From a virus, in the IMG/VR virus record IMGVR_UViG_3300042521_002634, positions 34,427-98,426 of that record: a DNA stretch of 64,000 bases. The stretch is one strand, 5' to 3'. Both the position numbers and the translations under genes were made by a program. Below are positions 12,505-34,772 of this stretch, one piece after another (the first letter of the stretch is position 1; every line of letters starts with the position of its first letter). The notes beneath the pieces are model-generated. The model did no database searches. It saw only the letters and a program-made list of their open reading frames with translations, and was not told the origin of the DNA.

Positions 12505-12522
12505 TTCCAAAGTTTTTATAAT
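12505..12522 (+). promoter_or_regulatory. TTCCAGAG-type promoter, plus strand
   Basis: TTCCAAAG, four bases, TATAAT. The ATG at 12529 follows after six bases, so the transcript is probably leaderless. This is the only member of the promoter family found left of 16 kb, and it follows the orientation of its gene. Confidence 0.8.
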
Positions 12523-12528
12523 GATGAC

Positions 12529-12888
12529 ATGATGAAAAGAAAAAACATTGTGAGTGTGCTACAAAGTTTGAGTGAGAAAAGCGCGCGTGCAAAGAGCTTG
12601 CCTCCTCTCACTCGAGCAGAGATGAGCAAGTGGCGAGATCCATTTGGCAGAGAGATGTTGACTAGCGCCTCTGCGTTCGCTCAACAGAAAGAGAAAGCAG
12701 AAAAGAAAAAGCGATTTGTTGTTGTTCGACACAGCGATGGAAAAGCTTGGTCAGGTCCATGGCTTAACGATGGAAAGCGATTCTCCTCAGTAGAAAGCAA
12801 GTGGCACTACTTCTTGCGAGAAGAAGACGCGGAGCAAGCTGTAGAGCGCGAAGGCTTCGACTATAGAGTTGATGTGTTTGAAATGTAG
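12529..12888 (+). CDS. Small basic hypothetical protein, probably leaderless
   Basis: A 119-residue protein, the lone rightward gene in the head module. The ATG at 12529 is chosen because it lies six bases after a TATAAT box; the longer frame upstream simply translates the promoter. The sequence is Lys/Arg-rich in its first 70 residues and ends with an alpha/beta module (KKRFVVVRHSDGKAWSGPW, then REEDAEQAVE, then YRVDVFEM). No family recognised. It is convergent with the gene at 12902. Confidence 0.8.
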   Translation: MMKRKNIVSVLQSLSEKSARAKSLPPLTRAEMSKWRDPFGREMLTSASAFAQQKEKAEKKKRFVVVRHSDGKAWSGPWLNDGKRFSSVESKWHYFLREEDAEQAVEREGFDYRVDVFEM

Positions 12889-12901
12889 AGCGTGACTATG
12901 C

Positions 12902-13345
12902 TTAGACGATGACGTTGATGAATGGTTCATCAGCGAACAAAGCTACAAGCATGTCCGCATCGACAGTGCCGGTTACCGCACGGTTGTTGGCCGCTTGATA
13001 TTGCTCTACCGCACGCTTAGTTGCGTCTGCATACCAGCCGTCTTTGTCAGTGCCTGCTTCATTGAACCCGCATTCGACTAAACGACGTTGAAGGTGATGT
13101 ACTGACAACGACTTGCGTGTTGCTGGGTTTTTGTAGATGCACATGTCAAGCCGCACGTCATCGCTGTCCGCACCGCTTGCGACAATTCCTACGCCAGACT
13201 TGACCGCACGCTTACGCGGCGCAGGTTCAGGTGTTGGTTCAGGTGTTGGTTCAGGAGCAGGCGCTACTGGCTGCTCTTCGACAACTACCGCAGCCTCTGC
13301 CACGACTGGAGTCTCTTCAACTGCTGGGGTTTCTTCGTTGCTCAT
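12902..13345 (-). CDS. Proline-rich protein with C-terminal peptidoglycan-binding-like domain
   Basis: A 147-residue protein. Residues 1-50 are a Glu/Pro/Val-rich extended segment containing EPTPEP repeats, followed by a basic RKRAVK patch. Residues about 80-140 resemble PG_binding_1: VHHLQRRLVECGFNEAG, then GWYADATKRAVEQYQAANN, then GTVDADMLVALF. The extended N-terminus suggests a tether, perhaps on the virion. It follows the terminase gene after 50 bases with its own possible -10 box (TACAAT near 13387). Confidence 0.75.
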   Translation of the reverse strand: MSNEETPAVEETPVVAEAAVVVEEQPVAPAPEPTPEPTPEPAPRKRAVKSGVGIVASGADSDDVRLDMCIYKNPATRKSLSVHHLQRRLVECGFNEAGTDKDGWYADATKRAVEQYQAANNRAVTGTVDADMLVALFADEPFINVIV

Positions 13346-13395
13346 TTGTTTACCGTACTTTCTTTAAAGACTTGATGTGTAATTGTATACCCGCA

Positions 13396-14811
13396 CTAGC
13401 GAGGCGAGAACACACGGCCACCGCCGCGGCCATTGCCGTTCCTAAAGCTTGGCAAGCGTCTGTGCGCCAACGACTTGGCTGTGATAGTTCCTCCGAGGAA
13501 GCCCGCAGGTGGCTTGATTAGCAAAGCAGTAAGTGCGTGAACTAAGGCGTCAACTCTGTCTGGTGACTTGCCTTCACCTGGAATCCATGCGCACATCTGC
13601 GACTCGAGGTCCGCAAGATAATTGACGTGATGCACGCGGTTTTGCTCGTAGGCAAGTGTGATTGGTTCAGCACGCAAGGCTTTGCCGACCTTTGAATGAA
13701 CCTCAAATACTTTGATCGTTGGGTCGATTGTGTTGATGGCATTCCGCACTAGTGCGCCGCCTTGGTTTACTTCTGCTACAACAGGGCACGACCACTTGCG
13801 CGCCATTTGAACTACCGTATTGGCCCAGCGGTCTGGCGCGCCAAGAAGTGACGCGTCCTCGAGAACCCATGAATGACGCTTGTACAAGTCACGTTCGCCT
13901 GTGGAAGCAACAACAACAATCCCGCATTCGTCGCGCGGATTCTCGGCTACGGACGGGTCGACGCCGATGCAGCGCAATGGCGCGCCAAGCGGCAGTTGTT
14001 TTTCCCGGGCGCGTTCAATCAGCTCGATAGTCCACAGCGCGCCTTCGATGTCACTAAGCATTTCACCGTAGAGCTCTTGAGCTGCCAACCGAGTGCCCTC
14101 GTAAACGCCTGTGATTGCGTCAAGATAGGTGCTTGAAAGGTTGCCCGCATTGTCAAGTGTCGAACCTCGTGACACGACAACGCGCCCAGTTTTTTCTGCC
14201 TCGTTCAGCAAGCCGTACAGCATTGGCACACGCTTTGGCGTTGTAGTGCAGATGATTTGTGGATTGGCGCCAAGACGAGTTGCAACTCGAACGTTGTCCC
14301 ACGACGTCATGCCCGCAGCGTCTGGCGACTGACGCCACGCCGCAATCTCGTCGCACCAGGCGTAGTGAAACTGAGGACCGCGAAGGCCGTCGGGTTCGTC
14401 AGCAGTAAAGCAAGTAGCCGTATTTCCGTTGGGCCAAGTCAGACGGCGCTTCGATGGCTCGTATAGTGGGCGCTCGCTTGGCGGCGAAACAGAAATGATA
14501 CCAGATTCGCCTTCAACAATTACGTCACGAACGTCGGCTGCAGTACGAGCGACAAGGGCAAAGCGAAGTTGGCCCATGTTTGTGACCTTAGCTCTATCAC
14601 GAACCCACTCCGCAGCTGACCGCGTCTTACCAGCACCGCGGCCAGCGAGGTACATCCATATTGACCAGTCATCTCCCGGCGGTGGCACTTGTTCCGGCCT
14701 TGCCCAGAGTTTCCAGTCCCACACAAGAAGCTCTGGGTCGATTCCGTCGAGAACTTTGTCACGCTCTTCGCGCGGCAACTTAGCAAGCTCTTCCATGATG
14801 CTCTTGGCCAT
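13396..14811 (-). CDS. Terminase large subunit
   Basis: A 471-residue packaging motor that cuts concatemeric DNA and pumps it through the portal. Walker A is AGRGAGKT at residues 56-63. Walker B is in FHYAWCDEIAAW. The coupling motif is in CTTTPKR. The RNase-H-like nuclease begins at CIGVDPSVAENPRDECGIV and ends around SPDRVDALVHALT. Length is typical. The start is supported by a TACAAT box six bases upstream. It is the first gene of the leftward head module. Confidence 0.95.
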   Translation of the reverse strand: MAKSIMEELAKLPREERDKVLDGIDPELLVWDWKLWARPEQVPPPGDDWSIWMYLAGRGAGKTRSAAEWVRDRAKVTNMGQLRFALVARTAADVRDVIVEGESGIISVSPPSERPLYEPSKRRLTWPNGNTATCFTADEPDGLRGPQFHYAWCDEIAAWRQSPDAAGMTSWDNVRVATRLGANPQIICTTTPKRVPMLYGLLNEAEKTGRVVVSRGSTLDNAGNLSSTYLDAITGVYEGTRLAAQELYGEMLSDIEGALWTIELIERAREKQLPLGAPLRCIGVDPSVAENPRDECGIVVVASTGERDLYKRHSWVLEDASLLGAPDRWANTVVQMARKWSCPVVAEVNQGGALVRNAINTIDPTIKVFEVHSKVGKALRAEPITLAYEQNRVHHVNYLADLESQMCAWIPGEGKSPDRVDALVHALTALLIKPPAGFLGGTITAKSLAHRRLPSFRNGNGRGGGRVFSPR

Positions 14812-15578: not shown

Positions 15579-15579
15579 G

Positions 15580-15988: not shown

Positions 15989-16174
15989 CTAGATGTTGGT
16001 TTCTTCCATCGCTTGAATTTCTTCAAGTGACGCAGACTCTACCGTAACCGAGCTGCCGTACTCTTCTCTCATTGAACGAGCGTATGAAACGCGACGCTCA
16101 GGAGTGACATACGCGACGATGGACTTACCATCACGCGTGATTGTCGTAACCTTGTACATTTCTGGTTCTTTCAT
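15989..16174 (-). CDS. Small hypothetical protein
   Basis: A 61-residue acidic protein starting at 16174, chosen because AAGGAGA lies at the right distance upstream and because longer versions would overlap the DUF6011 gene. It resembles a short beta-strand protein (YKVTTITRDGKSIVAYVT) followed by a helix and an acidic tail. No function recognised. Confidence 0.75.
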   Translation of the reverse strand: MKEPEMYKVTTITRDGKSIVAYVTPERRVSYARSMREEYGSSVTVESASLEEIQAMEETNI

Positions 16175-16195: not shown

Positions 16196-16214
16196 ATTAT
16201 ACACTGCTTTAGAA
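16196..16214 (-). promoter_or_regulatory. Degenerate TTCCAGAG-type promoter
   Basis: TTCTAAAG, five bases, TATAAT, overlapping the end of the upstream DUF6011 gene and feeding the gene starting at 16174. It is the weakest match in the family. Confidence 0.5.
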
Positions 16215-16775
16215 TCCAAACTTTTTTCGACACTCAGGTCCAAGTTGCAACTCACGAGAGCGAACATCTGTGAGCTCAGCTCCACATGAACCGCAGCACG
16301 AGTAGTGCTTGCCGAAGAGTTGCGTGTACTTGTACGGATCAACCGAGAGAATTGCGACGACTTCTTTAGTCTGCTCCGCTGTAAGCTTGCCGCGGTTAAA
16401 CGCGCCCGGAGCTCCATGGAGCGTGCGAATGTAGAGAGTGTTCATGTACTCTTTGATCTCAACAAAAAGCAAGTCATTTGCTACTTTGACTGACGACAGC
16501 TCGAGTTCGTCCGCAGGGATTGCGTACTTTGATTTCGGCACGCTTGCGAGAAGTGTCTGCATTCCGCCGGTCGCTTTCACGCGCTTAGGCAGCGCCAGAA
16601 ACGAGCTGATGTCCGAGCTTGCGTGCGACTTTGTGTAGTGGCCAGCAGAGATCGTGTCTTCAATGTGCTCCGCAGTATCCGCGTCAACCTCTCGGGTTGC
16701 GAGCAAGTCGCGGACAAAGCTGATCTGCTTTGGAGTCGCCATGTGGCGAAGTGTGTCTACGGCAGTAATTGTCAT
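16209..16775 (-). CDS. DUF6011-type zinc-binding protein
   Basis: A 188-residue protein. The start at 16775 has an AAGGAC site; the longer frame only translates promoter sequence. The N-terminal MATPKQISFVRDLLATR motif occurs in many phage proteins with a C-terminal treble-clef finger. The C-terminus (SCCGSCGAELTD...ELQLGPECRKKFG) has the Cys pattern of DUF6011. Such proteins may bind nucleic acid, but the role is unproven. Confidence 0.85.
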   Translation of the reverse strand: MTITAVDTLRHMATPKQISFVRDLLATREVDADTAEHIEDTISAGHYTKSHASSDISSFLALPKRVKATGGMQTLLASVPKSKYAIPADELELSSVKVANDLLFVEIKEYMNTLYIRTLHGAPGAFNRGKLTAEQTKEVVAILSVDPYKYTQLFGKHYSCCGSCGAELTDVRSRELQLGPECRKKFGF

Positions 16776-16817: not shown

Positions 16818-16835
16818 ATTATATAAACTCTGGAA
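16818..16835 (-). promoter_or_regulatory. TTCCAGAG-type promoter
   Basis: TTCCAGAG, TTTA, TATAAT on the minus strand, feeding the DUF6011 gene through a leader of about 35 bases that ends in an AAGGAC ribosome-binding site. Confidence 0.85.
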
Positions 16836-16910: not shown

Positions 16911-17216
16911 TTAGAATTCGTAGCAGTAGTATTCGTGGCGCTCGCCGACGTAGAGCTTGAGGCCGCCTCTCATCGAGGATCCTTGCAGTACGTACTGGCC
17001 ATTCGCGCGAAGCGTGAACGTCATTGTTTCGCCTTGTGGATTTGGTGTGATAATCCACTGATTGCTCATTGGCGCACCGGTTGCAACAGCGTTGTCGCGT
17101 TGGGCGACCACTGTTTTGTTGTTTTCACTGACCGCGATAACAGTCATCGCAATCGTGTCGGCGCAGAATGAGACGGATGCTCCCATTCCAATTTCTGGTT
17201 TAATCATGGTTTTCAT
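16911..17216 (-). CDS. Hypothetical beta-rich protein
   Basis: A 101-residue protein. The ATG at 17216 follows a GGACAAAA leader. The sequence alternates as short strands (SVSFCADTIAMTVIAVSEN, KTVVAQRDNAVAT, WIITPNPQGETMTFTLRANG) and ends in GERHEYYCYEF, so a small beta barrel is likely. It forms a single-gene unit with its own promoter and hairpin. Function unknown. Confidence 0.8.
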   Translation of the reverse strand: MKTMIKPEIGMGASVSFCADTIAMTVIAVSENNKTVVAQRDNAVATGAPMSNQWIITPNPQGETMTFTLRANGQYVLQGSSMRGGLKLYVGERHEYYCYEF

Positions 17217-17260: not shown

Positions 17261-17278
17261 AATATATCATCTCTGGAA
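17261..17278 (-). promoter_or_regulatory. TTCCAGAG-type promoter
   Basis: TTCCAGAG, ATGA, TATATT, feeding the gene at 17216. Confidence 0.85.
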
Positions 17279-17323: not shown

Positions 17324-17692
17324 TTAGCGGTTTGGGTAGAAGGGAATGTTAAGCAGTTTGCAGTGAGCGTCGATGAAGTCGATGATTGGTTTGCCGAATG
17401 CCGATATGCAGTCGTCGAAGTCGTCGCAGAAGTCTGAACCGGCGTAGTCGTAGCGTACGCCGTAGTTAAGTGTTTCGTCGGCTGAAAAGCCGATATTGAC
17501 GAAGTCGAAGACGTTGCCGTTGTAGTCGTGGCTGAAGTTGTTGAAAAACTCAGTGGTTTCGGTTGGGTCGTCGATGCCGGACTTAGTTGTAAGTAAGTAG
17601 GCGAGTGACAGTTTTGCGTCGAAGCTGACAGTTTCGTTGTCGATGTCGGTAAGCGTGATTTCGTAGGTGTCAGTTTTGAGTTGCGTTTTCAT
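17324..17692 (-). CDS. Acidic hypothetical protein
   Basis: A 122-residue strongly acidic protein (GSDFCDDFDDCISAFG near residue 85), starting at 17692 after a GGACAAAA leader. The N-terminus is beta-like (YEITLTDIDNETVSFDAKL), and the acidic, aromatic-rich remainder resembles the small proteins at 25463 and 25744. These could be paralogous or DNA-mimic-like proteins; that is speculation. It has its own promoter and hairpin. Confidence 0.8.
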   Translation of the reverse strand: MKTQLKTDTYEITLTDIDNETVSFDAKLSLAYLLTTKSGIDDPTETTEFFNNFSHDYNGNVFDFVNIGFSADETLNYGVRYDYAGSDFCDDFDDCISAFGKPIIDFIDAHCKLLNIPFYPNR

Positions 17693-17722: not shown

Positions 17723-17740
17723 ATTATACAAACTCTGGAA
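17723..17740 (-). promoter_or_regulatory. TTCCAGAG-type promoter
   Basis: TTCCAGAG, TTTG, TATAAT, preceded by CTCGAG, feeding the gene at 17692. Confidence 0.85.
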
Positions 17741-18759: not shown

Positions 18760-19017
18760 CTAGCCCTGGGTTGGCAGCTGAATTTCTTGCCCAGGGTAGA
18801 TTGTAGACGTGCCAAGGTTTAGAACTAAGTCGTCCATGGCATTTACAACGTTGCCTGAGCAATTTGCCTGAGCGATGCCGTGTAGCGTCTGGCCTTCCTG
18901 CACTGTCACGGCCGGCGAGTTGCAAGTGTACTTGCCACTCTCTTGCGCGACCTTGACTAAGCCTACAGCCGCAACTGCTGCCAGGGCAACAAAAAACATT
19001 TTACGTGCTTTCGTCAT
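18760..19017 (-). CDS. Exported LysM-domain protein
   Basis: An 85-residue protein with a basic start and a hydrophobic signal or anchor (MFFVALAAVAAVGLVKVA) followed by a LysM module: VQEGQTLHGIAQANC, then NAMDDLVLNLGTSTIYPGQEIQLP in two halves. LysM binds peptidoglycan or chitin. As a single cell-wall-anchored LysM in a phage middle region it may act on the host envelope during infection. Confidence 0.85.
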   Translation of the reverse strand: MTKARKMFFVALAAVAAVGLVKVAQESGKYTCNSPAVTVQEGQTLHGIAQANCSGNVVNAMDDLVLNLGTSTIYPGQEIQLPTQG

Positions 19018-19051: not shown

Positions 19052-19069
19052 ATTTTAACTTCTTTGGAA
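19052..19069 (-). promoter_or_regulatory. TTCCAGAG-type promoter (variant)
   Basis: TTCCAAAG, AAGT, TAAAAT, feeding the LysM gene. Confidence 0.65.
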
Positions 19070-19126: not shown

Positions 19127-19351
19127 CTAATAAGCGTACGAGTTTGAGTGACCCCAGACACGTTGATGTACCGCCGCGATGTCCGCAGCCTGCTCGTTGC
19201 TTTCGCATTCCATCTTTAAAATGACGGAATCGCTCGAGTCACCAGTCGGGCTTGCGAACCAAAGTTCAAGGGTTTTGCCGTAGAGCATGTAACCTCTGAA
19301 CGCGCCTTTGCTCTCTCGAACAGTCGAGAGTGCTTCGTCTGTCATTGCCAT
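19127..19351 (-). CDS. Hypothetical small protein
   Basis: A 74-residue protein. The ATG at 19351 is chosen from three nearby ATGs because it is in frame and about eight bases from an AAAGGAC site; the first ATG (19356) hits a stop after four codons. The sequence shows a strand-rich centre (YMLYGKTLELWFASP) and a C-terminal helix. Function unknown. Confidence 0.75.
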   Translation of the reverse strand: MAMTDEALSTVRESKGAFRGYMLYGKTLELWFASPTGDSSDSVILKMECESNEQAADIAAVHQRVWGHSNSYAY

Positions 19352-19395: not shown

Positions 19396-19416
19396 ATTAT
19401 ATTAACTTCTCTGGAA
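19396..19416 (-). promoter_or_regulatory. TTCCAGAG-type promoter
   Basis: TTCCAGAG, AAGT, TAATAT, feeding the gene at 19351. It abuts the stop codon of the upstream gene. Confidence 0.8.
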
Positions 19417-19587
19417 TCAATGCCCGTAGCGTCGAAGCAGCTCGCACGCGATTGTCATCGGATACGATGACGCGACATTGCGAACTACCTCCGCAACGAT
19501 GTCGTCTTCGCCCAGATCCGGGTAATCGGCTTTCGCGTCTTGGATACCGATCTGTACCTCGACGAGAGCGTCATTTAACGTTCTCAT
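19417..19587 (-). CDS. Small hypothetical protein
   Basis: A 56-residue protein from ATG 19587 (another ATG lies two codons upstream at 19593, but the AAAGG site fits 19587 better). The sequence begins MRTLNDALVEVQIGIQDAKA and ends PMTIACELLRRYGH; it is acidic and helical. Own promoter at 19615. Function unknown. Confidence 0.7.
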   Translation of the reverse strand: MRTLNDALVEVQIGIQDAKADYPDLGEDDIVAEVVRNVASSYPMTIACELLRRYGH

Positions 19588-19614: not shown

Positions 19615-19632
19615 AATGTATCATCTCCGGAA
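19615..19632 (-). promoter_or_regulatory. TTCCAGAG-type promoter, leftward half of a divergent pair
   Basis: TTCCGGAG, ATGA, TACATT, feeding the gene at 19587. It is back to back with the plus-strand copy at 19671, with about 40 bases between. Confidence 0.8.
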
Positions 19633-19670: not shown

Positions 19671-19688
19671 TTCCGGAGATGATATATT
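19671..19688 (+). promoter_or_regulatory. TTCCAGAG-type promoter, plus strand
   Basis: TTCCGGAG, ATGA, TATATT on the plus strand, feeding the rightward gene at 19730 through a leader ending in AACGACGAAAGGACGAAA, the same leader type used by the leftward genes. Confidence 0.85.
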
Positions 19689-19729: not shown

Positions 19730-19978
19730 ATGAAAAAATGGTGCTTGCTTAAAGGAAGCGACATCGGCCCAATGGGACGAGGTCAGAATGGCAAGAAGAA
19801 AGTCTACGAGGTAATCGCAGATGGTTCAGTGTTGCGTTGCTCGTGGGGCATGGCAGAGAAGATCAACCGCCAGTCAAGCGTGCAAGTGTATCACTCAGGC
19901 CAAGCAGCAATGTCAGCCGCGTACGAAAAAGTGTACGCAAAGCGAGACAAGGGATACGCTCTAGCTTACGAAGTTTAA
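19730..19978 (+). CDS. WGR-like domain protein
   Basis: An 82-residue protein. The pattern is that of a minimal WGR module: KKVYEVIADGSVLRCSWG, then SVQVYHSGQAAMSAAYEKVYAKR, then DKGYALAYEV. In other proteins WGR domains bind nucleic acid ends or mediate protein contacts. The ATG at 19730 has an AAAGGAC site. It is one of only three rightward genes in the 12-35 kb region and has its own promoter and terminator. Confidence 0.65.
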   Translation: MKKWCLLKGSDIGPMGRGQNGKKKVYEVIADGSVLRCSWGMAEKINRQSSVQVYHSGQAAMSAAYEKVYAKRDKGYALAYEV

Positions 19979-20031: not shown

Positions 20032-20049
20032 TTCCAGAGTTGTTATATT
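20032..20049 (+). promoter_or_regulatory. TTCCAGAG-type promoter, plus strand, leaderless
   Basis: TTCCAGAG, TTGT, TATATT, then six bases (GATTAC) and the ATG at 20056. There is no room for a leader. Confidence 0.85.
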
Positions 20050-20055: not shown

Positions 20056-20307
20056 ATGACAAACATACAAACACACCAAATAATCAACATCCATCACGAA
20101 CCTGAATACTTGACTACTGTCACGTTTAACTACTACGGCGACCCGTACGCCATATCGCACATCGGCAACCTAAACGGCATCGACAGCTACTGCGTAAACA
20201 GCGTCAACAGCAACGAGTACTACGAATACCTCGCTGCCAACTGCGACTTCATCGTCGACTTGCTCAAAAATAATCCGCGCATCGACGCCGCGCTTCACAG
20301 CAAATAA
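20056..20307 (+). CDS. Small hypothetical protein, probably leaderless
   Basis: An 83-residue protein rich in Asn, Tyr and His (MTNIQTHQIINIHHEPEYL...). The ATG is fixed by the promoter six bases upstream; no ribosome-binding site is present. Acidic and aromatic-rich, like the leaderless genes at 25294-25711. Function unknown. Confidence 0.8.
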   Translation: MTNIQTHQIINIHHEPEYLTTVTFNYYGDPYAISHIGNLNGIDSYCVNSVNSNEYYEYLAANCDFIVDLLKNNPRIDAALHSK

Positions 20308-24391: not shown

Positions 24392-24399
24392 TAGCAAGA

Positions 24400-26521: not shown

Positions 26522-26538
26522 ATTATATAAACTCTGGA
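26522..26538 (-). promoter_or_regulatory. TTCCAGAG-type promoter
   Basis: TCCAGAG, TTTA, TATAAT, feeding the 26491 and 26313 genes. It abuts the stop of the upstream gene. Confidence 0.8.
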
Positions 26539-26832
26539 CTAGTACTCTGACATCATTCTGTCGTAGCGAATCTCTTCCGCAACCGCGTCGTCGTCGTACT
26601 TCTCGAGAGCGACCATCGCCTCATCGACGTTGGTGAACTCTTGTTCGTGAATGCAATCTACGTCTGCCGGCTCCCAGTACGTCGCTGGAATTGTCTTCCA
26701 AACTGTCCCGACGATGAGTCCGCTAGTCTGCACTTGCACTTCAAGCCCGAACAAGTCGCCTATCGCGAAGTACTCCGCAATGACGCCTTCAAACGGCTCT
26801 CTTGTTCCCCATTGTTTCTTCGTGTATTTCAT
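26539..26832 (-). CDS. Hypothetical acidic protein
   Basis: A 97-residue protein with a basic start (MKYTKKQWGTREPF) and an acidic beta/alpha body ending AEEIRYDRMMSEY. Single-gene unit with the AAGGACGCAAT leader. No family recognised. Confidence 0.8.
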   Translation of the reverse strand: MKYTKKQWGTREPFEGVIAEYFAIGDLFGLEVQVQTSGLIVGTVWKTIPATYWEPADVDCIHEQEFTNVDEAMVALEKYDDDAVAEEIRYDRMMSEY

Positions 26833-26859: not shown

Positions 26860-26877
26860 ATTATATAAACTCTGGAA
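26860..26877 (-). promoter_or_regulatory. TTCCAGAG-type promoter
   Basis: TTCCAGAG, TTTA, TATAAT, preceded by CTCGAG, feeding the 26832 gene. Confidence 0.85.
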
Positions 26878-26884: not shown

Positions 26885-27031
26885 TTACTTCTTATTTTGC
26901 TTTTCGATGCACCTGACTAAGTCTTCAGCTATTTCTTTCTTTCTGAAGTACCTAACTCCAGACGGAGTTATTACGTTCCAAGTGTGAATGCTTCTCTCAA
27001 TACGTACCTGTTGTTTCGTCGTTGTAGTCAT
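26885..27031 (-). CDS. Tiny basic protein, leaderless
   Basis: A 48-residue basic protein (MTTTTKQQVRIERSIHTWNV ... VRCIEKQNKK), too short for most gene finders. The ATG is six bases after a TATAAT box. The fold looks like two strands followed by a helix (RKKEIAEDLVRCIEK). Function unknown. Confidence 0.7.
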   Translation of the reverse strand: MTTTTKQQVRIERSIHTWNVITPSGVRYFRKKEIAEDLVRCIEKQNKK

Positions 27032-27037: not shown

Positions 27038-27055
27038 ATTATATAAACTCTGGAA
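27038..27055 (-). promoter_or_regulatory. TTCCAGAG-type promoter, leaderless
   Basis: TTCCAGAG, TTTA, TATAAT, then GGTTGC and ATG 27031. Preceded by CTCGAG. Confidence 0.85.
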
Positions 27056-27062: not shown

Positions 27063-27233
27063 CTATATCGAGATCGGGCAACTCAGGTTCGCATCGTTTG
27101 AGTGGAATCGAAGTTCCTGCTTGCAAACTGCGCAGATTTCGTCTAAGTCTAGACCAACAACGCTGTCGTTGTAGTCACGCATAGCTCGTCGTTTACCTGC
27201 TCGATAAGCGATGTACAGTCCTAAGATTCCCAT
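27063..27233 (-). CDS. Small zinc-binding protein with N-terminal hydrophobic helix, leaderless
   Basis: A 56-residue protein starting MGILGLYIAYRAGKRRAMRD, a short hydrophobic helix plus basic stretch, followed by CAVCKQEL and a distal Cys. The ATG lies six bases after a TATAAT box. Function unknown. Confidence 0.7.
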   Translation of the reverse strand: MGILGLYIAYRAGKRRAMRDYNDSVVGLDLDEICAVCKQELRFHSNDANLSCPISI

Positions 27234-27239: not shown

Positions 27240-27256
27240 ATTATAACAGCTCTGGA
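27240..27256 (-). promoter_or_regulatory. TTCCAGAG-type promoter, leaderless
   Basis: TCCAGAG, CTGT, TATAAT, then GTAGTT and ATG 27233. Confidence 0.8.
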
Positions 27257-27266
27257 TGTCCAAAGT

Positions 27267-27356: not shown

Positions 27357-27560
27357 TCAATCGCGTTTAGGGAACGCAATGATCTTAGCATCAGGCGGTT
27401 CAGGCAGCACCTCGATGTCGAGGATGTCAACCATCTCTGCGTCTTCTATTCCCTGCGAGACAGCTGCGAATACCTCACCGTCTATCTCTGTGTATGCGTC
27501 AGGCCCGCGCCTCACGCACAGCCGGACCACTACTGAGTAGAGGACCGTGCCTTCACTCAT
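27357..27560 (-). CDS. Hypothetical protein
   Basis: A 67-residue protein (MSEGTVLYSVVVRLCVRRGP...) whose start overlaps the upstream stop (ATGA). Strand-helix-strand pattern (DGEVFAAVSQGIEDAEMVDILDIEVL, quoted in part) suggests a ferredoxin-like small fold. Function unknown. Confidence 0.75.
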   Translation of the reverse strand: MSEGTVLYSVVVRLCVRRGPDAYTEIDGEVFAAVSQGIEDAEMVDILDIEVLPEPPDAKIIAFPKRD

Positions 27561-27775
27561 GATTGTGCGGCGTCAGGGAACACCAACGGCAGCGCTAACT
27601 GCGCCGTCGGTTTCATCTTGCCGCCTGACAACTGCAGCGCGATACTTCCACGCTCGCCTTCAGGCGCGTTGTCGACGTCTTCCCACTCGTCCTCGGTCCA
27701 GTCTGATGTGTCGACGACGACTAATTGACGAGCATTGCCGTAGTTTCCATCGGCAGCGAAATAGTGAATTGTCAT
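27557..27775 (-). CDS. Hypothetical acidic protein
   Basis: A 72-residue protein (MTIHYFAADGNYGNARQLVV...) with an acidic centre (DWTEDEWEDVDNAPEGE). First gene of a two-gene unit with the 27357 gene. Function unknown. Confidence 0.75.
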   Translation of the reverse strand: MTIHYFAADGNYGNARQLVVVDTSDWTEDEWEDVDNAPEGERGSIALQLSGGKMKPTAQLALPLVFPDAAQS

Positions 27776-27804: not shown

Positions 27805-27822
27805 ATTATATAAACTCTGGAA
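27805..27822 (-). promoter_or_regulatory. TTCCAGAG-type promoter
   Basis: TTCCAGAG, TTTA, TATAAT, feeding the 27775 gene. Confidence 0.85.
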
Positions 27823-27888: not shown

Positions 27889-29682
27889 TTAGCGTTGAAC
27901 TGACTCCAGCGCTCTTGCTGCTGCAGATCCTATCTGCGTCGCTACGTCTGCGGCACTTGTAATCTTCTCGACGAGCTGCACTGACTTGGTGCTCGAGCTA
28001 TTGAGAAGTCGACGAGCGTCGTCACTCGCTAACGGAGACACAACCATGACTCCGACACCAAGTCTTTCGCACTCATCTAACCAGCGTCGTGCGTTCTTCG
28101 TCTCTTCGTGAGTGTAACACAGATCGCTAACGATGACGAGCAATCGCGCGCCTACGCCATTGAGCAAGTTCAACGAACCATCAAGCGCTTTGAATGCTTT
28201 CTCAAAGCGTTCAGTTCCATCTGGCGCCGAGTACACTGTCACCTCTGACAAGTGCTGCCCGGGCTTCAATGTTGGGAACACCCCAGTGCCGTAGTAAACC
28301 ATCGCCGCACGGCCTTGAACTCTCCGCACCGCTTCGCTCATGACCCACGCTGTCACTGCCATCGGCTCCATCGCCGAGGACATTGAACCGCTGATGTCGA
28401 CCATTACGCCGACAGTGAGAGTTGGGTCGTCAGTGTGCGTGCGCTTAGTCCGGCGCCATGGCTCTACTTGCGTCATGATGCCCTTCGACTTAAACGCTGC
28501 TCCCTGCACCATAGCGCGCGTGCGCAACCGGCCAGGAGGAACGATCGACTTAATCTCAGTCTCGTCACGCTCACGATACTTAGCTTTCTCAAGCATCTGC
28601 GCTACCTTGACTGCTGCTGCTCGTTCATCACCACGTGGAGCGCGCTTTTCAACTAGACGACTGTTTGTCTCAGAAGAAGATTCTGGCCCAGTGCCTCTAC
28701 CGAATACTTTGTCCGCAGCGTCCTTGTGTTCTTTCTGCTGCTTCGCTGCACCGCTTCGACTTTTAACTTCACGCTCCCATTCTTCTTGCGTCTGTTGATC
28801 TGCTGCATCGGCTGAACCACCGACAGCTGCGTTGCCAGCTGCTTCCTCGAGTGCTTCCTCGAGTGCTTCCCCGAACTCGCCAAGCTCGCCTAGCCCTGAT
28901 TCACCTTGACCAGGCTCTGGCTCACCAGCTTCAGCTGCTGCCTCTTTAACTAATCTTGCCCACTCACGGGCGACAGGGTAGAGACCTTCAATTGAACTGT
29001 GTGAAGTGTAGTCCTGAGCTTGCAGCCATAGGTTGCGAAGCTTAGTGAAGAGCTCTACACCAAGCTTATTGATTAGAACTTCCTCTACAGTCTCGATGTC
29101 TGACAGCTCGAGTGAACCCGCATCTACGCGTGCTGACGTGAGTGCCGCCATGTGCGCTGCTGTCCACATGCTGCTGGTGTCTACACCGGTGACATTGAGG
29201 TCAGCCATCACTATCTCGAGCGCGCAAGCGCGGAGAAACCCGGAGTTACCTGGCATCAAGGTGACGCCTAAGTTCTCGATACGACCTTCTTCAAGAAGCA
29301 CGAGTGCTTTGAACTCAAGAGACTCGAGGTCCTTCTGCGCTTTAATGAGATCCCAGCGAGAGAACCGAGCGTGGAGAGCTTCATGGAATATGACACCAGA
29401 AGCTTTAGGCCAGTCGAACTGAACGCTGCGTTGCGTCATGTCGCCGATCGACGCCGGCGTTATTGACTTGCCAAACGCTCTCGTCACATCTACTTCGATC
29501 TCTGCAAGCATTGGGTTGTAGCACGCTGGTGCCACGCCGCCACCGGCGCCTGGGCCGACGTACGCGATAACATCTGCGCGTTCTGCCCAGATATTTGTAA
29601 TCTGGCCGATCTGCACGCCTACGCCTAACCACTCGGGTGGCGTAGCCTCAGCTCGAGAGCTATTAATCTTAAAATGTGTCAT
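27889..29682 (-). CDS. VWA-domain protein with N-terminal HExxH motif (CobT/ViaA-like partner)
   Basis: A 597-residue protein. Near residue 96 is FHEALHARFSR, an HExxH metal-binding motif. The middle (about 255-360) is an acidic, Glu/Ala-rich low-complexity region like that of CobT. A C-terminal VWA domain has a full MIDAS start, VDISGSM near residue 428, and later LLVIVSDLCYTH. Directly upstream, as a separate unit, is a MoxR-type AAA+ ATPase, so the pair forms a MoxR-VWA system that usually remodels or inserts metal into a target complex. The target here is unknown. Confidence 0.88.
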   Translation of the reverse strand: MTHFKINSSRAEATPPEWLGVGVQIGQITNIWAERADVIAYVGPGAGGGVAPACYNPMLAEIEVDVTRAFGKSITPASIGDMTQRSVQFDWPKASGVIFHEALHARFSRWDLIKAQKDLESLEFKALVLLEEGRIENLGVTLMPGNSGFLRACALEIVMADLNVTGVDTSSMWTAAHMAALTSARVDAGSLELSDIETVEEVLINKLGVELFTKLRNLWLQAQDYTSHSSIEGLYPVAREWARLVKEAAAEAGEPEPGQGESGLGELGEFGEALEEALEEAAGNAAVGGSADAADQQTQEEWEREVKSRSGAAKQQKEHKDAADKVFGRGTGPESSSETNSRLVEKRAPRGDERAAAVKVAQMLEKAKYRERDETEIKSIVPPGRLRTRAMVQGAAFKSKGIMTQVEPWRRTKRTHTDDPTLTVGVMVDISGSMSSAMEPMAVTAWVMSEAVRRVQGRAAMVYYGTGVFPTLKPGQHLSEVTVYSAPDGTERFEKAFKALDGSLNLLNGVGARLLVIVSDLCYTHEETKNARRWLDECERLGVGVMVVSPLASDDARRLLNSSSTKSVQLVEKITSAADVATQIGSAAARALESVQR

Positions 29683-29715
29683 TTGTCCTTGTCCTTTGTT
29701 GTCCTTGTACTATCA

Positions 29716-29733
29716 ATTATATAAACTCTGGAA
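29716..29733 (-). promoter_or_regulatory. TTCCAGAG-type promoter
   Basis: TTCCAGAG, TTTA, TATAAT, feeding the VWA gene. Confidence 0.85.
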
Positions 29734-29738
29734 AGAGA

Positions 29739-29772
29739 GGTTAGCCTCCCGCACACCTACGGGAGACCAACC
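29739..29772 (-). terminator. Hairpin after the MoxR-type ATPase gene
   Basis: Thirteen-base arms GGTTAGCCTCCCG / CGGGAGACCAACC with one mismatch around 8 bases. Confidence 0.6.
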
Positions 29773-29800
29773 AACGAAGACTGAGCGCGAAAGGCAGCGC

Positions 29801-30793
29801 TTAGATCTTCGCCGGGCGACACTCTTCTCCGAATACTCGGGTGAAGACGTCAGCCACGACTGGGCGATCCATCTCGGGAGCGGCAGCTAGCAAGTTCGCG
29901 ATAGCGAATGATGTGCCGAACTCCTTTGCGAGATCGCGGAACGCTAGAAGCTCACGCATCTGAGGAGCCCATGAGACTTCAGACGACTGCTGCTTCTTAC
30001 TTAAATTTTGCGCCGCAGTGACGATTGGCACCGGAGCTCCTAACTTACGAGCGAGCGACCAATCAGTCGTCATCTCTGCTTGCACAAGGAATCGTGACAA
30101 GAGAGCTTCAGACAATCGCACGCCTGGAGCGTTCGGGTTAGTCGCTGCGATTACGTAGAAACCTGGAGCAGCTTTCACTGTCCCACGCTCTGGGTTAGCA
30201 GTCACAGTGTATTCACGACGGCCATCCATGAGACCGTAGACGATACTGAGCACCTTCGGGTCGATAAGACCTACCTCATCGATGAGCAGCACTCCGCCGC
30301 ACTCCGCTGCTTTAAGCAGTGGGCCGTCCTCCCAGACAAAGCCACCACTTGGTGTCTGCACATATCCGCCGACTAAGTCAGCAACTTCTGTGTCGCCTGA
30401 GCCGAGCACTGTGAACAAGCCACCGGACTCGCCAGTGAACGCAGCTTCAACAACAGCAGTCTTACCGCAACCTGGTGCGCCGTACAAAAGTACGTATGCT
30501 GACATGTCTCTCGACTTGCGAAGCACCATGACATCGTCATGCTCACCCCACTTGCGTGAGTAGTAGTTCTCGCCATTTGGTCGAGTGTAACTCTTCTCGC
30601 CTACAAGCGCGTCTGCAGATATCATTGGAACTTTCTTCTTCGGAGCGATAGTCTTAGCCTTGACGCGTCCTGCGTCGAGAACCATTGACTTCATCTTATC
30701 CGCGAACTCTGAGTGCAGAGTCTGCCCCGCTGCTGCAAGCAGCACTTTGTCTAGCCCCGGGTGGAGCTTGTCGTATTCTGTACTTGATAACAT
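29801..30793 (-). CDS. MoxR-type AAA+ ATPase
   Basis: A 330-residue ATPase. Walker A GAPGCGKT is at residues 105-112 and Walker B is in GGVLLIDEVGLIDP. Sensor 1 is in AATNPNAPGVRLSEALLSRF, with an arginine finger (SRF). MoxR ATPases act as hexameric chaperones together with VWA proteins such as the one encoded next door. The start has an AAAGGACACAAA leader. Confidence 0.9.
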   Translation of the reverse strand: MLSSTEYDKLHPGLDKVLLAAAGQTLHSEFADKMKSMVLDAGRVKAKTIAPKKKVPMISADALVGEKSYTRPNGENYYSRKWGEHDDVMVLRKSRDMSAYVLLYGAPGCGKTAVVEAAFTGESGGLFTVLGSGDTEVADLVGGYVQTPSGGFVWEDGPLLKAAECGGVLLIDEVGLIDPKVLSIVYGLMDGRREYTVTANPERGTVKAAPGFYVIAATNPNAPGVRLSEALLSRFLVQAEMTTDWSLARKLGAPVPIVTAAQNLSKKQQSSEVSWAPQMRELLAFRDLAKEFGTSFAIANLLAAAPEMDRPVVADVFTRVFGEECRPAKI

Positions 30794-30846: not shown

Positions 30847-30864
30847 ATTATAAAGACTCTGGAA
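30847..30864 (-). promoter_or_regulatory. TTCCAGAG-type promoter
   Basis: TTCCAGAG, TCTT, TATAAT, feeding the MoxR-type gene. It abuts the stop codon of the upstream gene. Confidence 0.8.
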
Positions 30865-30865: not shown

Positions 30866-31312
30866 CTAACTCTGCTTCCAGTAATCTTCAAAACTAAGAA
30901 ACTTGCGAGCTTTGTTGACTCGGCCAAGAGCCTTGTACGCGAGCTTGCCTCTGGCCGCGTCATCGACATCCTTCTGCGTGAGCTCGACGACGATTGGCTC
31001 TTTGTACAGAGCCCAGCCTCGAGTTGAAAGCTGCTGCATTGTCGAGTCTGTCAACGACGTCAGCCAAGTCGATGCCTGAACTTCAGCACTGCCGGGTCCT
31101 GGCATAACAGGGCTTGGCGTCGGGCCTGTGTAGCATCGCCACTGTCTGCGTGCTACCGCTGGCGAGATCTGTCGACGGAATACTGTAAACGGCATCATAA
31201 GCGATGAAGACGACCTAAGCGGCGGAAACATCATCATTTGATACGACGTTTTGTCGTGCCTAAATTCTAAGTAGAGCATGTGCCCTACAACTTCTGTTGA
31301 ACTGTCATTCAT
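30866..31312 (-). CDS. Hypothetical protein
   Basis: A 148-residue protein. N-terminal half has Met/Phe-rich strands (YQMMMFPPLRSSSSLMMPF), the centre is Pro/Gly-rich, and the C-terminus is helical and basic (ALGRVNKARKFLSFEDYWKQ). No family recognised. Its place next to the ATPase/VWA pair makes it a candidate partner (inference). Confidence 0.75.
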   Translation of the reverse strand: MNDSSTEVVGHMLYLEFRHDKTSYQMMMFPPLRSSSSLMMPFTVFRRQISPAVARRQWRCYTGPTPSPVMPGPGSAEVQASTWLTSLTDSTMQQLSTRGWALYKEPIVVELTQKDVDDAARGKLAYKALGRVNKARKFLSFEDYWKQS

Positions 31313-31341: not shown

Positions 31342-31359
31342 ATTATATAAACTCTGGAA
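31342..31359 (-). promoter_or_regulatory. TTCCAGAG-type promoter
   Basis: TTCCAGAG, TTTA, TATAAT, feeding the 31312 gene. Confidence 0.85.
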
Positions 31360-31428: not shown

Positions 31429-31806
31429 CTAGACAGCGTGCTCGTGCGAGCACACTGATAGAAAGACTTCGAAACCGAAGTTCACAAGGTCATGCTCTCC
31501 AGCGATGTCCTGAGTGACGACAGTCTGGTCTGACCAGGTGACGAGATGCACGTCATCTGTATCAGGCTCACAGAAGTCCCGGCCGCCGGCTGTAATGCCG
31601 AAGCCAGTCTCTTCACTCCACGAGTCTCCCACAATTGAGGAGATTGCGATGCGAGTCGCGTATGCTGAATCGCTCCAGCGTGGACGAGCTTTCTCGATTG
31701 CCGTGGCAATCAAGCTCAGTCTGTCGCTGCCACCCCAGTGACTGTATAGCCACACGGGAGGAGTATCTTTAGTGTCGCGGAATCCCACGACGAATCTGTC
31801 ACCCAT
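31429..31806 (-). CDS. Conserved phage hypothetical protein (MGDRFVVGF family)
   Basis: A 125-residue protein. The N-terminal pattern MGDRFVVGFRDTKDTPPVWL followed by YSHWGGSDR is recurrent in phage genomes. Soluble alpha/beta protein, with a conserved-looking TGFGITAGG loop and an acidic C-terminus. Function not established. Confidence 0.8.
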   Translation of the reverse strand: MGDRFVVGFRDTKDTPPVWLYSHWGGSDRLSLIATAIEKARPRWSDSAYATRIAISSIVGDSWSEETGFGITAGGRDFCEPDTDDVHLVTWSDQTVVTQDIAGEHDLVNFGFEVFLSVCSHEHAV

Positions 31807-31852: not shown

Positions 31853-31870
31853 ATTATAACAACTCTGGAA
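31853..31870 (-). promoter_or_regulatory. TTCCAGAG-type promoter
   Basis: TTCCAGAG, TTGT, TATAAT, feeding the 31806 gene. Confidence 0.85.
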
Positions 31871-31974: not shown

Positions 31975-32307
31975 TTACTTGGCGTCGAGGACCGTGTAAG
32001 ACGACTGAACTAGCGTAGCGTCGTGCGCTTCAGGGAACGCAGTCTTGAGCGCTTCACGATCAATCTTGCTCATGTTGCGATGTTGAATTCGCACACGAAC
32101 AGTTCCATTGATTGTGCCACTCTTCGCGTCACCAAGCATTGCACGAAGCTTTTGCTCCGCTTCTGCTTTCTTCGCTTCAAACGCCTTGATTGCTGCTTTC
32201 GCAGAGTTGAACTCTGCAATCGCAATCTCAGTTGCAAGTTCATCGAGAATTGCAACCTGCTCTGCTACTTCGACTGTTGAGGTCGTGATTACTGTTGATG
32301 TTGTCAT
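31975..32307 (-). CDS. Coiled-coil protein resembling YqaJ-associated recombination proteins
   Basis: A 110-residue protein from ATG 32307; the longer frame translates the promoter (FQSLYN). N-terminal Thr/Val-rich strand, then a helix EFNSAKAAIKAFEAKKAEAE, then a beta domain TINGTVRVRIQHR and KTAFPEAHDATLVQ. This helix-plus-small-domain layout is like the C-terminal domain of phage YqaJ-type exonuclease-associated proteins. Tentative; no catalytic motif. Confidence 0.65.
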   Translation of the reverse strand: MTTSTVITTSTVEVAEQVAILDELATEIAIAEFNSAKAAIKAFEAKKAEAEQKLRAMLGDAKSGTINGTVRVRIQHRNMSKIDREALKTAFPEAHDATLVQSSYTVLDAK

Positions 32308-32334: not shown

Positions 32335-32352
32335 ATTATATAAACTCTGGAA
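32335..32352 (-). promoter_or_regulatory. TTCCAGAG-type promoter
   Basis: TTCCAGAG, TTTA, TATAAT, feeding the 32307 gene. Confidence 0.85.
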
Positions 32353-32406: not shown

Positions 32407-32820
32407 TTACAGGGTTGCTGACGCCAGCACTCTTGCTGGCTTCGAGTCATCAACATGACTTGCGCCATGGAGCTTGACCCAAGCGTCCCAGTAGCACGTT
32501 GACGAGCCATCGTCGAACGTCACCTGCTGACTCTTCAGGATGAAACCTGGAGAGCAGTTGCATGTGCAACCGGCGTGCTGCGACCAGCTCAATTTGCTGA
32601 TGTCAAGCACTCCTGCAAGTCCGCTCGAGTGAATCATCGACTTGTAGACATTGTACGGGCGACGCTTGCGATTCGCAAGGTTGCTCATAAGTGTCTCATC
32701 TTCGATGCTTACGTACATCCGAGGAGCTGCTGTCAGCTCTCGGCTGCTTGTGTATCTACGTTCAGTGAACGTAATTGACCCTCCAGTGAATTCCACTGTA
32801 CGTCGTCGTTGCGTATTCAT
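32407..32820 (-). CDS. Hypothetical Cys-containing protein
   Basis: A 137-residue protein with HAGCTCNCSPGFIL (three closely spaced Cys) near residue 85 and another Cys in STCYWDAW, which could bind metal. N-terminus basic and beta-like (RRRTVEFTGGSITFTER). Function unknown. Single-gene unit. Confidence 0.75.
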   Translation of the reverse strand: MNTQRRRTVEFTGGSITFTERRYTSSRELTAAPRMYVSIEDETLMSNLANRKRRPYNVYKSMIHSSGLAGVLDISKLSWSQHAGCTCNCSPGFILKSQQVTFDDGSSTCYWDAWVKLHGASHVDDSKPARVLASATL

Positions 32821-32849: not shown

Positions 32850-32867
32850 ATTATATAAACTCCGGAA
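32850..32867 (-). promoter_or_regulatory. TTCCAGAG-type promoter
   Basis: TTCCGGAG, TTTA, TATAAT, feeding the 32820 gene. Confidence 0.85.
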
Positions 32868-32966: not shown

Positions 32967-33161
32967 CTAAACGTTGTTGATTGGCTCAAACCCAAGGTCT
33001 AGCGCGGCGCGGCGCGCTTCCTTAGCAGTCTTGAACCCACTGAACGTCGGGCCGACCACCTCGGTGTTGTGGCCGTCGTACGTGCGGTGTATGCCAAAGT
33101 ACCGACCATTCGGCCCTTTGTATACGACCATCGGCCGTAGAGGCTTAGCTTTCGTTTTCAT
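32967..33161 (-). CDS. Small basic hypothetical protein
   Basis: A 64-residue basic protein (MKTKAKPLRPMVVYKGPNGR...) with a short strand-strand-helix pattern (FSGFKTAKEARRAALDLGFE), reminiscent of small AP2-like DNA-binding repeats but too short to assign. Leader contains AAAGGACGCAAAGA. Confidence 0.7.
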   Translation of the reverse strand: MKTKAKPLRPMVVYKGPNGRYFGIHRTYDGHNTEVVGPTFSGFKTAKEARRAALDLGFEPINNV

Positions 33162-33194: not shown

Positions 33195-33211
33195 ATTGTA
33201 ACAACTCTGGA
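33195..33211 (-). promoter_or_regulatory. TTCCAGAG-type promoter
   Basis: TCCAGAG, TTGT, TACAAT, feeding the 33161 gene. It abuts the stop of the upstream gene. Confidence 0.75.
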
Positions 33212-33466
33212 TTAGCTCTCGCCAAGTGGATCGATTACTCGGCGAAGAGCTGTGTCAATATGAGCGTCTGCATAGCTCTTCTCAAAGCGGAAGCCATCAT
33301 CGCAAGCTCGGTGATACACGAACCAGCGATAGAAGACCTCGATGTCTTTTACAACTGGTATGCGTCCGGCTGCGAACTCTGTTCTAAACCGATCACGCAG
33401 CACCGGCGTGTCTATTCCGCTAACTACGTGCTCCAGCTCTGCAAGTTCGACTGATGATACTTTCAT
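33212..33466 (-). CDS. Hypothetical protein
   Basis: An 84-residue protein from ATG 33466; the upstream extension translates the promoter. Sequence begins MKVSSVELAELEHVVSGIDT and is mostly helical with RACDDGFRFEKSYADAHID near the end. Function unknown. Confidence 0.75.
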   Translation of the reverse strand: MKVSSVELAELEHVVSGIDTPVLRDRFRTEFAAGRIPVVKDIEVFYRWFVYHRACDDGFRFEKSYADAHIDTALRRVIDPLGES

Positions 33467-33493: not shown

Positions 33494-33511
33494 ATTATAT
33501 AAACTCTGGAA
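33494..33511 (-). promoter_or_regulatory. TTCCAGAG-type promoter
   Basis: TTCCAGAG, TTTA, TATAAT, feeding the 33466 gene. Confidence 0.85.
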
Positions 33512-33513
33512 AC

Positions 33514-33780: not shown

Positions 33781-33791
33781 AAATCAGAAGC

Positions 33792-34304
33792 CTAAGCTAG
33801 GCGTTTAATTTTTGCCAGACGGTCTTCAAGTTCGGCTACCCGGGCCTGAAGTTTCGCTGTTCGCTCGCTCACAAGAAGATCGATGAGCTGATCTGCAGTG
33901 TGCTTTTTGGCAGCGGTCTTGCCTTTTCGAGTGCTAGCAGGCCGACGTCCAGTTTTAAGGACGACGCCCGGTACAGCTTCAGCGACGGTGCGTGGAGGCA
34001 CAACGTTGCCTTTAGCCCAGTACAGCGACGCTTGATAGCCTTTAGGCGCTTTCATTGATGAGCGAATGAGACGTTCATCCATGGTCTCGGTACGCTTGCT
34101 TACCAGGCCGGCGGCTTCCAAACGAATCAACGCGTTTCTCACTGACACCGGATCGGCTTTTCGTCCGGTCATCTGGCTAATTGCTTGCTGAAGCTCAAGA
34201 ACGCTGAGTGGTTGAGTAGATTCAAGCAACGTAAGTTGAACGTTGTCTTTCAGTGTTTGGAACATCATTATTTTTTCTTCTATTACTTGATTGTACTTGC
34301 GCAT
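33792..34304 (-). CDS. Winged-helix DNA-binding protein with C-terminal coiled coil
   Basis: A 170-residue protein from ATG 34304, which has a GGAGAAAACG leader (an earlier ATG at 34334 lacks one). Residues about 15-75 form a winged-helix: VQLTLLESTQPLSVLELQQA, then DPVSVRNALIRLEAAGLVSK. A basic linker with RRPASTRKGKTAAKK is followed by a coiled coil (TAKLQARVAELEDRLAKIKRL). It is a candidate regulator of the surrounding regulon. The linker overlaps a copy of the bipartite repeat at 33909. Confidence 0.8.
   Translation of the reverse strand: MRKYNQVIEEKIMMFQTLKDNVQLTLLESTQPLSVLELQQAISQMTGRKADPVSVRNALIRLEAAGLVSKRTETMDERLIRSSMKAPKGYQASLYWAKGNVVPPRTVAEAVPGVVLKTGRRPASTRKGKTAAKKHTADQLIDLLVSERTAKLQARVAELEDRLAKIKRLA
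33909..33948. repeat. Bipartite repeat copy inside a gene
   Basis: GGCAGCGGTCTTGCC at 33909 and AGGCCGACGT at 33939, the same 30-base spacing as the intergenic copies. In the encoded protein it spells the basic linker in the winged-helix protein. Confidence 0.65.
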
Positions 34305-34340
34305 CGTTTTCTCCTGTGTCTGTTGTATGTTCATTAATAA

Positions 34341-34748
34341 TTATATATTATCATCTCTGGAAACCCAGTTGCCTTCGGTATCGCCAAAGAGTAGCTGATC
34401 GTCTCCAGTTCTAGTCCAAGAAAACTCGCAGCACGAGTGTTCGTCTTCGTCTTCAAAAAGAGTGTGATACGGGGCACCGGCTCGAAAAATGTTTGGAAGA
34501 GCGCGAGCAACCTTTAGAAAGCAGTCGTGACAGAGCACTGTCATTTCTCGTTCTGGTTCTTCAAACATAAAATCGACGAACATGCCATAGCCGCCAAGTA
34601 AGTCAAGGACCATGCCATTTATAACTTGCGGATACTCTTCACGAGGCTCGTAGTCGATATCTACGTCTTCCACGTATTTTGGATTTTGAACGTGAGTATC
34701 CTGATTACACTCGTCGCAACGAGTCTTTGGGTAGCTGTCTCTTATCAT
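34341..34748 (-). CDS. Cys-rich hypothetical protein, leaderless
   Basis: A 135-residue protein with Cys pairs in TRCDECNQDTH and VLCHDCFLK, likely a zinc site, and an acidic C-terminus ending GNWVSRDDNI. The ATG at 34748 is seven bases after a TATAAT box and lacks a ribosome-binding site, so it is probably leaderless. Function unknown. Confidence 0.75.
   Translation of the reverse strand: MIRDSYPKTRCDECNQDTHVQNPKYVEDVDIDYEPREEYPQVINGMVLDLLGGYGMFVDFMFEEPEREMTVLCHDCFLKVARALPNIFRAGAPYHTLFEDEDEHSCCEFSWTRTGDDQLLFGDTEGNWVSRDDNI
34345..34362 (-). promoter_or_regulatory. TTCCAGAG-type promoter
   Basis: TTCCAGAG, ATGA, TAATAT, feeding the winged-helix gene. It overlaps the end of the upstream gene. 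Confidence 0.8.
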
Positions 34749-34755
34749 TACCAGA

Positions 34756-34772
34756 ATTATATAAACTCTGGA
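34756..34772 (-). promoter_or_regulatory. TTCCAGAG-type promoter, leaderless
   Basis: TCCAGAG, TTTA, TATAAT, then seven bases and ATG 34748. This is the rightmost member of the promoter family. It abuts the stop of the CHAP gene. Confidence 0.8.

Follow-up and report, generated by a model that had tools for sequence, protein, structure and literature searches.

A conserved word close to the -10 box in the promoters of a viral clade and its probable reading by a phage-encoded adaptor

Introduction

What reads a set of viral promoters that keep a TATAAT-like -10 box, lack a -35 box and share a short word a few bases upstream of the -10? The question is raised by a viral contig of 98,426 bases (IMG/VR record IMGVR_UViG_3300042521_002634, labelled G000), of which bases 34427-98426, a stretch of 64,000 nucleotides (nt) hereafter called the window, were analysed. 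The word TTCCAGAG, or a close variant, precedes such a box at 31 sites. These elements are very probably promoters of one class, as judged from their sequence, and the word is probably read by a phage-encoded adaptor together with the sigma-A RNA polymerase of the host.

Among annotated relatives the closest is Actinomycetia phage DSL-LC01 (OQ999401; a complete genome of 129 kb from lake water), with 84% identity to the window in the terminase and 75% in the AAA ATPase. An actinomycete host is predicted for it, and its promoters are not mentioned (PMC10611076). The record studied here has two WhiB genes, which is consistent with an actinobacterial host; relatives of the phage were sought in bacterial genomes for host identification, and none was found.

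The element and its distribution

A first-pass annotation of the window had listed 31 sites. All were recovered with the pattern TTCCAGAG-N4/5-TANNNT: 20 have the exact word, 10 have one mismatch and one (16214) has two. The window has 20 copies of the exact pattern, where shuffled sequences give 0.08 ± 0.27. With at most one mismatch, 30 sites are present in the 98.4-kb record, far above the random level: 30 Markov simulations gave 0.9 on average and never more than 4. All 30 are located at 12.5-34.8 kb, in line with the earlier statement that the element is not found right of 35 kb, and the remainder of the record, including its left 34 kb, contains just one more pattern match, having a poor box (TAGCCT). 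The word without a box occurs three times in the window, near the chance level of two.

The gap between word and box is 4 nt at 29 of the 31 sites and 5 nt at two (16214, 21496), exactly as the annotation had it. Its claim that the element tracks gene orientation also stands, with a divergent pair at 19632 (minus) and 19671 (plus) and further plus-strand sites at 12505 and 20032; 19615 and 19632 are the two ends of one minus-strand site.

Transcription start and leaders

Seven of the 31 sites (12505, 20032, 25455, 25735, 27055, 27257, 34773) are followed by an ATG 6-7 nt past the box, a leaderless arrangement that the earlier reading had missed. When ATGs opening a frame of 35 codons or more were tallied at 317 sites pooled from nine phages of the clade, they were found at +6 in 49 cases, at +7 in 9 and at +0 to +5 in 2; they are rare at +8 to +26 and resume at +27-45, mostly behind a ribosome-binding site. 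No GTG or TTG starts show the leaderless signature. This two-peaked distribution, as expected of leaderless and leadered genes that are started from one fixed point, would place the transcription start 6-7 nt past the box. The elements thus have the TATAAT -10 with a start 6-8 nt downstream that is expected of sigma-70/sigma-A promoters, the start being taken from the leaderless genes.

The leaderless state is shared by relatives, as judged by N-terminal sequence: gene 27063-27233 has leaderless counterparts in DSL-LC01 and records G001, G007, and G023, and gene 25294-25431 in DSL-LC01, G001, G002, G004, G007, and G017.

Leadered units were said to share a ribosome-binding site, which is true in part. 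The sequence CGAAAGGA, an extended Shine-Dalgarno sequence, is found in 14 leaders of the block, these being all 14 of its occurrences in the 64-kb window, and among the 24 leadered units GAAAGGA is found in 14, AAAGGA in 20, and AGGA in all. Relatives that use other promoters have the extended form too. Small stem-loops between start site and Shine-Dalgarno sequence are seen in the leaders of 16835, 17278, 19416, 19671, and 31870, for example GCCAAAATGGTTGGC after 19416. Terminator-like hairpins upstream of the sites were considered as a defining part of the element and rejected: in the 45 nt upstream, 19% of the sites of the window's record have z below -2, which does not exceed the control. 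The excess of upstream hairpins is clearer in DSL-LC01, G001, and G007.

The sites and their genes are as follows (predicted composite promoters, window coordinates).

12505-12522, plus: TTCCAAAG-N4-TATAAT; leaderless gene 12529-12888, ATG at +6
16196-16214, minus: TTCTAAAG-N5-TATAAT, the weakest site; gene 15989-16174; two mismatches, outside the one-mismatch set
16818-16835, minus: gene 16209-16775 (DUF6011)
17261-17278, minus: gene 16911-17216; hairpin immediately upstream
17723-17740, minus: gene 17324-17692
19052-19069, minus: TTCCAAAG-N4-TAAAAT; gene 18760-19017
19399-19416, minus: gene 19127-19351
19615-19632, minus: TTCCGGAG-N4-TACATT; gene 19417-19587; divergent with 19671
19671-19688, plus: TTCCGGAG-N4-TATATT; gene 19730-19978
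20032-20049, plus: leaderless gene 20056-20307
21478-21496, minus: N5 spacing; gene 21044-21448, then WhiB gene 20805-21044
23221-23238, minus: TAATAT box; small open reading frame 23068-23175 and downstream genes
24375-24392, minus: ATCCAGAG-N4-TATAAT; Xre-like gene 24124-24333 and HslV-like block
25438-25455, minus: leaderless gene 25294-25431; orthologues in relatives likewise leaderless
25718-25735, minus: leaderless gene 25463-25711
26077-26094, minus: gene 25744-26046
26522-26539, minus: GTCCAGAG-N4-TATAAT; gene 26324-26491
26860-26877, minus: gene 26539-26832
27038-27055, minus: leaderless gene 26885-27031
27240-27257, minus: ATCCAGAG-N4-TATAAT; leaderless gene 27063-27233
27805-27822, minus: gene 27557-27775
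29716-29733, minus: CobT/VWA-like gene 27889-29682; hairpin immediately upstream
30847-30864, minus: AAA ATPase gene 29801-30793
31342-31359, minus: gene 30866-31312; hairpin immediately upstream
31853-31870, minus: gene 31429-31806; strong hairpin immediately upstream
32335-32352, minus: gene 31975-32307
32850-32867, minus: TTCCGGAG-N4-TATAAT; gene 32407-32820
33195-33212, minus: ATCCAGAG-N4-TACAAT; gene 32967-33161
33494-33511, minus: gene 33212-33466
34345-34362, minus: TAATAT box; winged-helix gene 33792-34304
34756-34773, minus: ATCCAGAG-N4-TATAAT; leaderless gene 34341-34748, ATG at +7

Architecture of the promoters

Relative to the start the word occupies -24 to -17 and the TATAAT box -12 to -7. 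The gap between them is exactly 4 nt in 264 cases, any other distance occurring in at most three, and so rigid a gap requires a joint reading of word and -10. A -35 hexamer was sought 16-19 bp upstream in the window's record; the mean best match was 2.81 of 6, against 2.62 in shuffled sequences, and none reached 5. The similarity thus equals the shuffled background, which bears out the earlier remark that a -35 box is lacking. TGn, with TG at -15/-14, is found at 26% of the sites in the window's record, at 77-78% in DSL-LC01 and G002, and at none of the 87 sites in G004, G023, and G019. In at least these three phages, then, nothing but the word and the -10 is strongly conserved. The proposal that one factor reads a composite extended -10 therefore holds for the joint reading of word and -10, but not for the extended -10 itself, in view of these TGn counts.

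The word has an information content of 10-16 bits, compared with 1-5 bits for the 11 bases upstream; its value is somewhat inflated by the word having belonged to the site definition, of which the spacing and the chance tests in the window are independent. Similarity among the sites is limited to about -26 to -7 and the Shine-Dalgarno sequence, with almost none upstream of the word.

Two symmetrical designs were tried and rejected. For an inverted-repeat operator, the arms GATTCT...AGAATC of DSL-LC01 show no co-variation in L083/L028 (GAAACT...GGAATC), and for a half-palindrome within the word (CYNNRG) the positions likewise change without co-variation (CCAGAG, CTAGGG).

Relatives and bacterial genomes

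IMG/VR, scanned with the AAA ATPase, yielded 69 loci. The near group has the identical layout in other letters (TTCTAAAG, AACTAAAG, ATCTAGGG, TTCTAAGG, AACTCAGG), the consensus of the word across nine phages being WWCYNRRG. Phages farther away use ACCTGATATAATAGTAC, an extended -10 lacking the word, and sister phages such as L027-L065 have CCTGATATAAT, also an extended -10. In the ATPase tree a single branch, with support of 96/99 and present in 98% of bootstrap trees, divides the composite class from all others, the root being set by midpoint only. One simple history is that a plain extended -10 gained the word once and that TGn was later lost in several lineages, a direction that we infer. 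That related viruses have this layout with lineage-specific letters suggests a virus-encoded protein that steers the host machinery.

Across 84,980 genomes of bacteria and archaea, the leaderless pattern TTCCAGAG-N4-TATAAT-N6-ATG has 20 scattered single matches, not one of them in a record titled as an actinobacterium. This rarity, for the one word tested, argues against a host promoter class. Matches to TTCTAAAG-NNGT-TATAAT-N6-ATG are mostly contigs of this phage clade, several of them hit repeatedly. When viral contigs were scanned with a pattern of 14 fixed bases, the matches listed were single and scattered. Of the cultured relatives, one stretch of 41-49 kb each from Microbacterium phage Pumpernickel and Gordonia phages Forza and GMA2 has no composite element among its few TATAAT-plus-gene sites.

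Proposed mechanism and candidate readers

In the mechanism that we propose, the sigma-A RNA polymerase of the host would read and melt the TATAAT -10, and the word would be read by a DNA-binding protein that the phage encodes and that docks on the polymerase. The word TTCCAGAG would be a core promoter element replacing the -35 or the TGn extended -10, +1 would coincide with the A of the start codon at seven genes, and within each lineage of phages the word and its reader would have changed in step. The letters themselves give the position of the word, its fixed spacing, the start (indirectly, through the leaderless genes), the lack of other elements, the restriction to a clade and, for one word, the absence from bacteria. 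The reader is presumed to be a protein, encoded by the phage and activating. A broader reading is held more tentatively, as one that may be right but that we would not call probable: WWCYNRRG at -24 to -17 would be a new core element, read by an adaptor inside the -35/-10 spacer and spelt in lineage letters, and the ancestral extended -10 would have decayed in several lineages because the new element took over.

The polymerase seemingly does not read spacer bases upstream of -15, where base-specific contacts are not known (PMC2613000), and a further protein is thus the natural reader. A phage sigma factor, one of the readers suggested earlier, finds no support in profile searches: Sigma70_r2 (PF04542) is absent from this record, which is possibly incomplete, and from 12 further records, and Sigma70_r4 (PF04545) from every composite-clade phage including the complete DSL-LC01, as well as from the possibly incomplete record itself. 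An activator or an altered polymerase, also named at that time, is the most likely kind of explanation. A profile search for single-subunit RNA polymerase (PF00940) gave no match, its control likewise matching nowhere.

Several sister phages with other promoter classes encode a stand-alone protein of about 200 amino acids having a sigma-70 region-4-like helix-turn-helix (HTH) (PF04545, 28 bits; loci L041-L043, L045-L065, L067, L071-L073; copies L144:452-1054 in record G008 and L151:2509-3162 in G014). Their TATAAT sites tend to have TACTT in the -35 zone, with 9-10 such sites in G008 and G014 and no more than two in records that lack the protein. The correlation is imperfect, as only 1-2 such sites are found in several carriers and none in G018, and the records are related. 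The protein may serve these phages as a sigma-4-like adaptor that has a -35 word of its own, and the correlation suggests that promoter adaptors may be recurrent among them.

Four proteins are candidate readers of the word in the window.

20805-21044, minus: candidate adaptor, small WhiB (Wbl); Pfam PF02467, 67 bits; second gene of the 21496 unit
33792-34304, minus: candidate adaptor, winged-helix PadR-like with C-terminal coiled helix; AlphaFold2 predicted local distance difference test (pLDDT) 83; fast-diverging
24124-24333, minus: candidate adaptor, 69-amino-acid Xre/HipB-like HTH protein; AlphaFold2 pLDDT 85.5; found in 7/9 records
44157-44651, plus: candidate adaptor outside the block, 164 amino acids, resembling two HTH units; only sub-threshold HTH matches

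The small WhiB protein has relatives in all nine composite-class records, with four Cys and the G[VI]WGG turn (GVWGG) conserved in the alignment, and WhiB (Wbl) proteins are known to bind sigma-A region 4 (PMC10245118). As a clade-specific factor it was set aside: 20 of 23 records have it, some of which use other promoters, so its distribution is not decisive. The winged-helix protein, in eight of nine records, matches PadR-family structures in the PDB from E 0.016, and the Xre-like protein matches HTH folds there at E 0.2-0.9, both weakly and with a consistent fold class. The Xre-like protein was rejected as an exclusive factor, since it is also found in L037/L038/L040, which have CCTGA promoters. 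Records without a given candidate are partial, so every candidate stays in play.

Alternative explanations

Several observations weigh against an adaptor encoded by the phage. No candidate has a distribution matching that of the element exactly, and WhiB and winged-helix proteins also occur in phages with other promoters. Three candidates are themselves members of the regulon, so the circuit must be started by something else, and a host factor particular to the host of this phage may be the reader. It is also conceivable that the host polymerase alone (sigma-A with, e.g., RbpA and CarD) recognises the word, which would reflect a strong-promoter preference of the host. This would suit the perfect TATAAT boxes, the little -35 that suffices for initiation by actinobacterial polymerases, and the plain extended -10 promoters of sister phages, expected to be readable by host polymerase. 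We consider it unlikely, because the letters of the word vary among close relatives, bacterial genomes show no enrichment of the leaderless pattern (one word tested), and the polymerase has no known base-specific contacts at the word (PMC2613000).

An operator function is quite unlikely. A phage repressor at -24 to -17 would silence the promoters in lysogeny, as at the stoperators of cluster A mycobacteriophages, and an occluding repressor does not need the invariant spacing to the -10 that is seen here. Sites away from promoters are lacking, and the promoters would be left without a -35 and, in three phages, without TGn, even though the asymmetric oriented sites, their dozens per genome, their lineage-specific letters and the two-HTH candidate do resemble stoperators (PMC9283540) and DSL-LC01 is predicted to be temperate (PMC10611076). 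That the repeats are functionless copies of a duplicated cassette is very hard to believe: one block does hold many small genes with a similar leader, but the genes are unrelated, similarity does not extend beyond the element and the Shine-Dalgarno sequence, almost nothing being conserved upstream of the word, and the layout is retained across strongly diverged phages. Genuine promoters of one class, their word read by a phage-encoded adaptor (WhiB, winged-helix, Xre-like or two-HTH protein as candidates) with host sigma-A polymerase, are the explanation that we hold to be probable.

Comparison with known systems

In the middle promoters of phage T4 (MotA/AsiA), the sigma-70 -10 of the host is kept, and in place of the -35 a phage protein recognises a word whose distance is fixed, the MotA box being centred near -30. 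The present promoters are alike in the kept -10 and the fixed distance, but their word, at -24 to -17, is not centred about -30 and nearly abuts the -10. No relatives of MotA or AsiA turned up in family scans. Streptomyces phage phiC31 reportedly has multiple early promoters that require a phage-made activator, and is thus another actinophage whose early region would carry numerous promoters resembling one another. Extended -10 promoters (TGnTATAAT) similarly lack a -35; here TGn is found at 26% of the sites of the window's record and is missing in three phages of the clade, and the conserved word is located farther upstream.

Stoperators of the L5 type comprise more than 20 asymmetric oriented sites per genome with letters that vary by phage, each bound by a protein with two DNA-binding domains, and they also sit in intergenic spaces outside promoters and repress (PMC9283540). 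The sites described here are likewise asymmetric and oriented with transcription, but the one-mismatch sites all lie 4-5 bp before a -10-like box. The start-associated sequence (SAS) of cluster K mycobacteriophages, GGGATAGGAGCCC, is located 3-7 bp before the start codon, and a translational role is proposed for it (PMC3203893). Both are actinophage repeats by the dozen, asymmetric and oriented with genes of the non-structural region, and they differ in sequence and position, the repeat here being a promoter element. WhiB7 activates through sigma-A region 4 and reads AT-rich DNA upstream of the -35 (PMC10245118); small WhiB is present in all nine records here, yet almost nothing is conserved upstream of -25.

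Neighbouring genes and leader RNAs

Within the regulon and adjoining the Xre-like gene, an HslV-like protease gene is found at 23239-23829 of the window (PHROG 1040, 77 bits); in DSL-LC01 and G001 this group is completed by WhiB and a zinc-ribbon gene. The AAA ATPase and CobT/VWA-like pair (27889-30793), with a separate composite promoter for each gene, has relatives in nearly all compared records. A subtilisin-like protease gene (21618-22862, Pfam S8) is located inside the block, and its relative in G001, 51% identical, outside the block of that record.

In L048 (about 8600-8700), L073 (about 14480-14580), and L059 (about 14370-14470), leader RNAs some 80 nt in length were seen that are closed by a long stem and have the stretch CGAAACAAT in common. 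They start right after a CCTGA- or CGG-type promoter and are followed by the ribosome-binding site. An Rfam search with the L073 copy gave no match, and the RNA looks like an undescribed structured leader. A conserved hairpin stretch of about 75 nt, GGTTGGAACGACC...CCTTCCGATTATGGAAGG...GTAAAAGTTCCAGGGCACC, lies between two composite promoters in L017 (17790-17871; record G001, match at 29075) and L021 (12100-12180). It may be a small phage RNA; the L017 copy had no match in Rfam.

Significance

The composite element appears to be undescribed, nothing like it having been found in a literature search made mostly without subscription papers. Phages usually take over the host polymerase via the -35 region, their own sigma factor or their own polymerase. 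Here the conserved signal is located within the spacer, where base reading by the polymerase is not known. With about 30 natural promoters per phage, nine versions of the word, extended -10 sisters and leaderless genes from which the start is predicted to the base, these phages offer a ready test bed for the origin of a new promoter element and for its reader protein.

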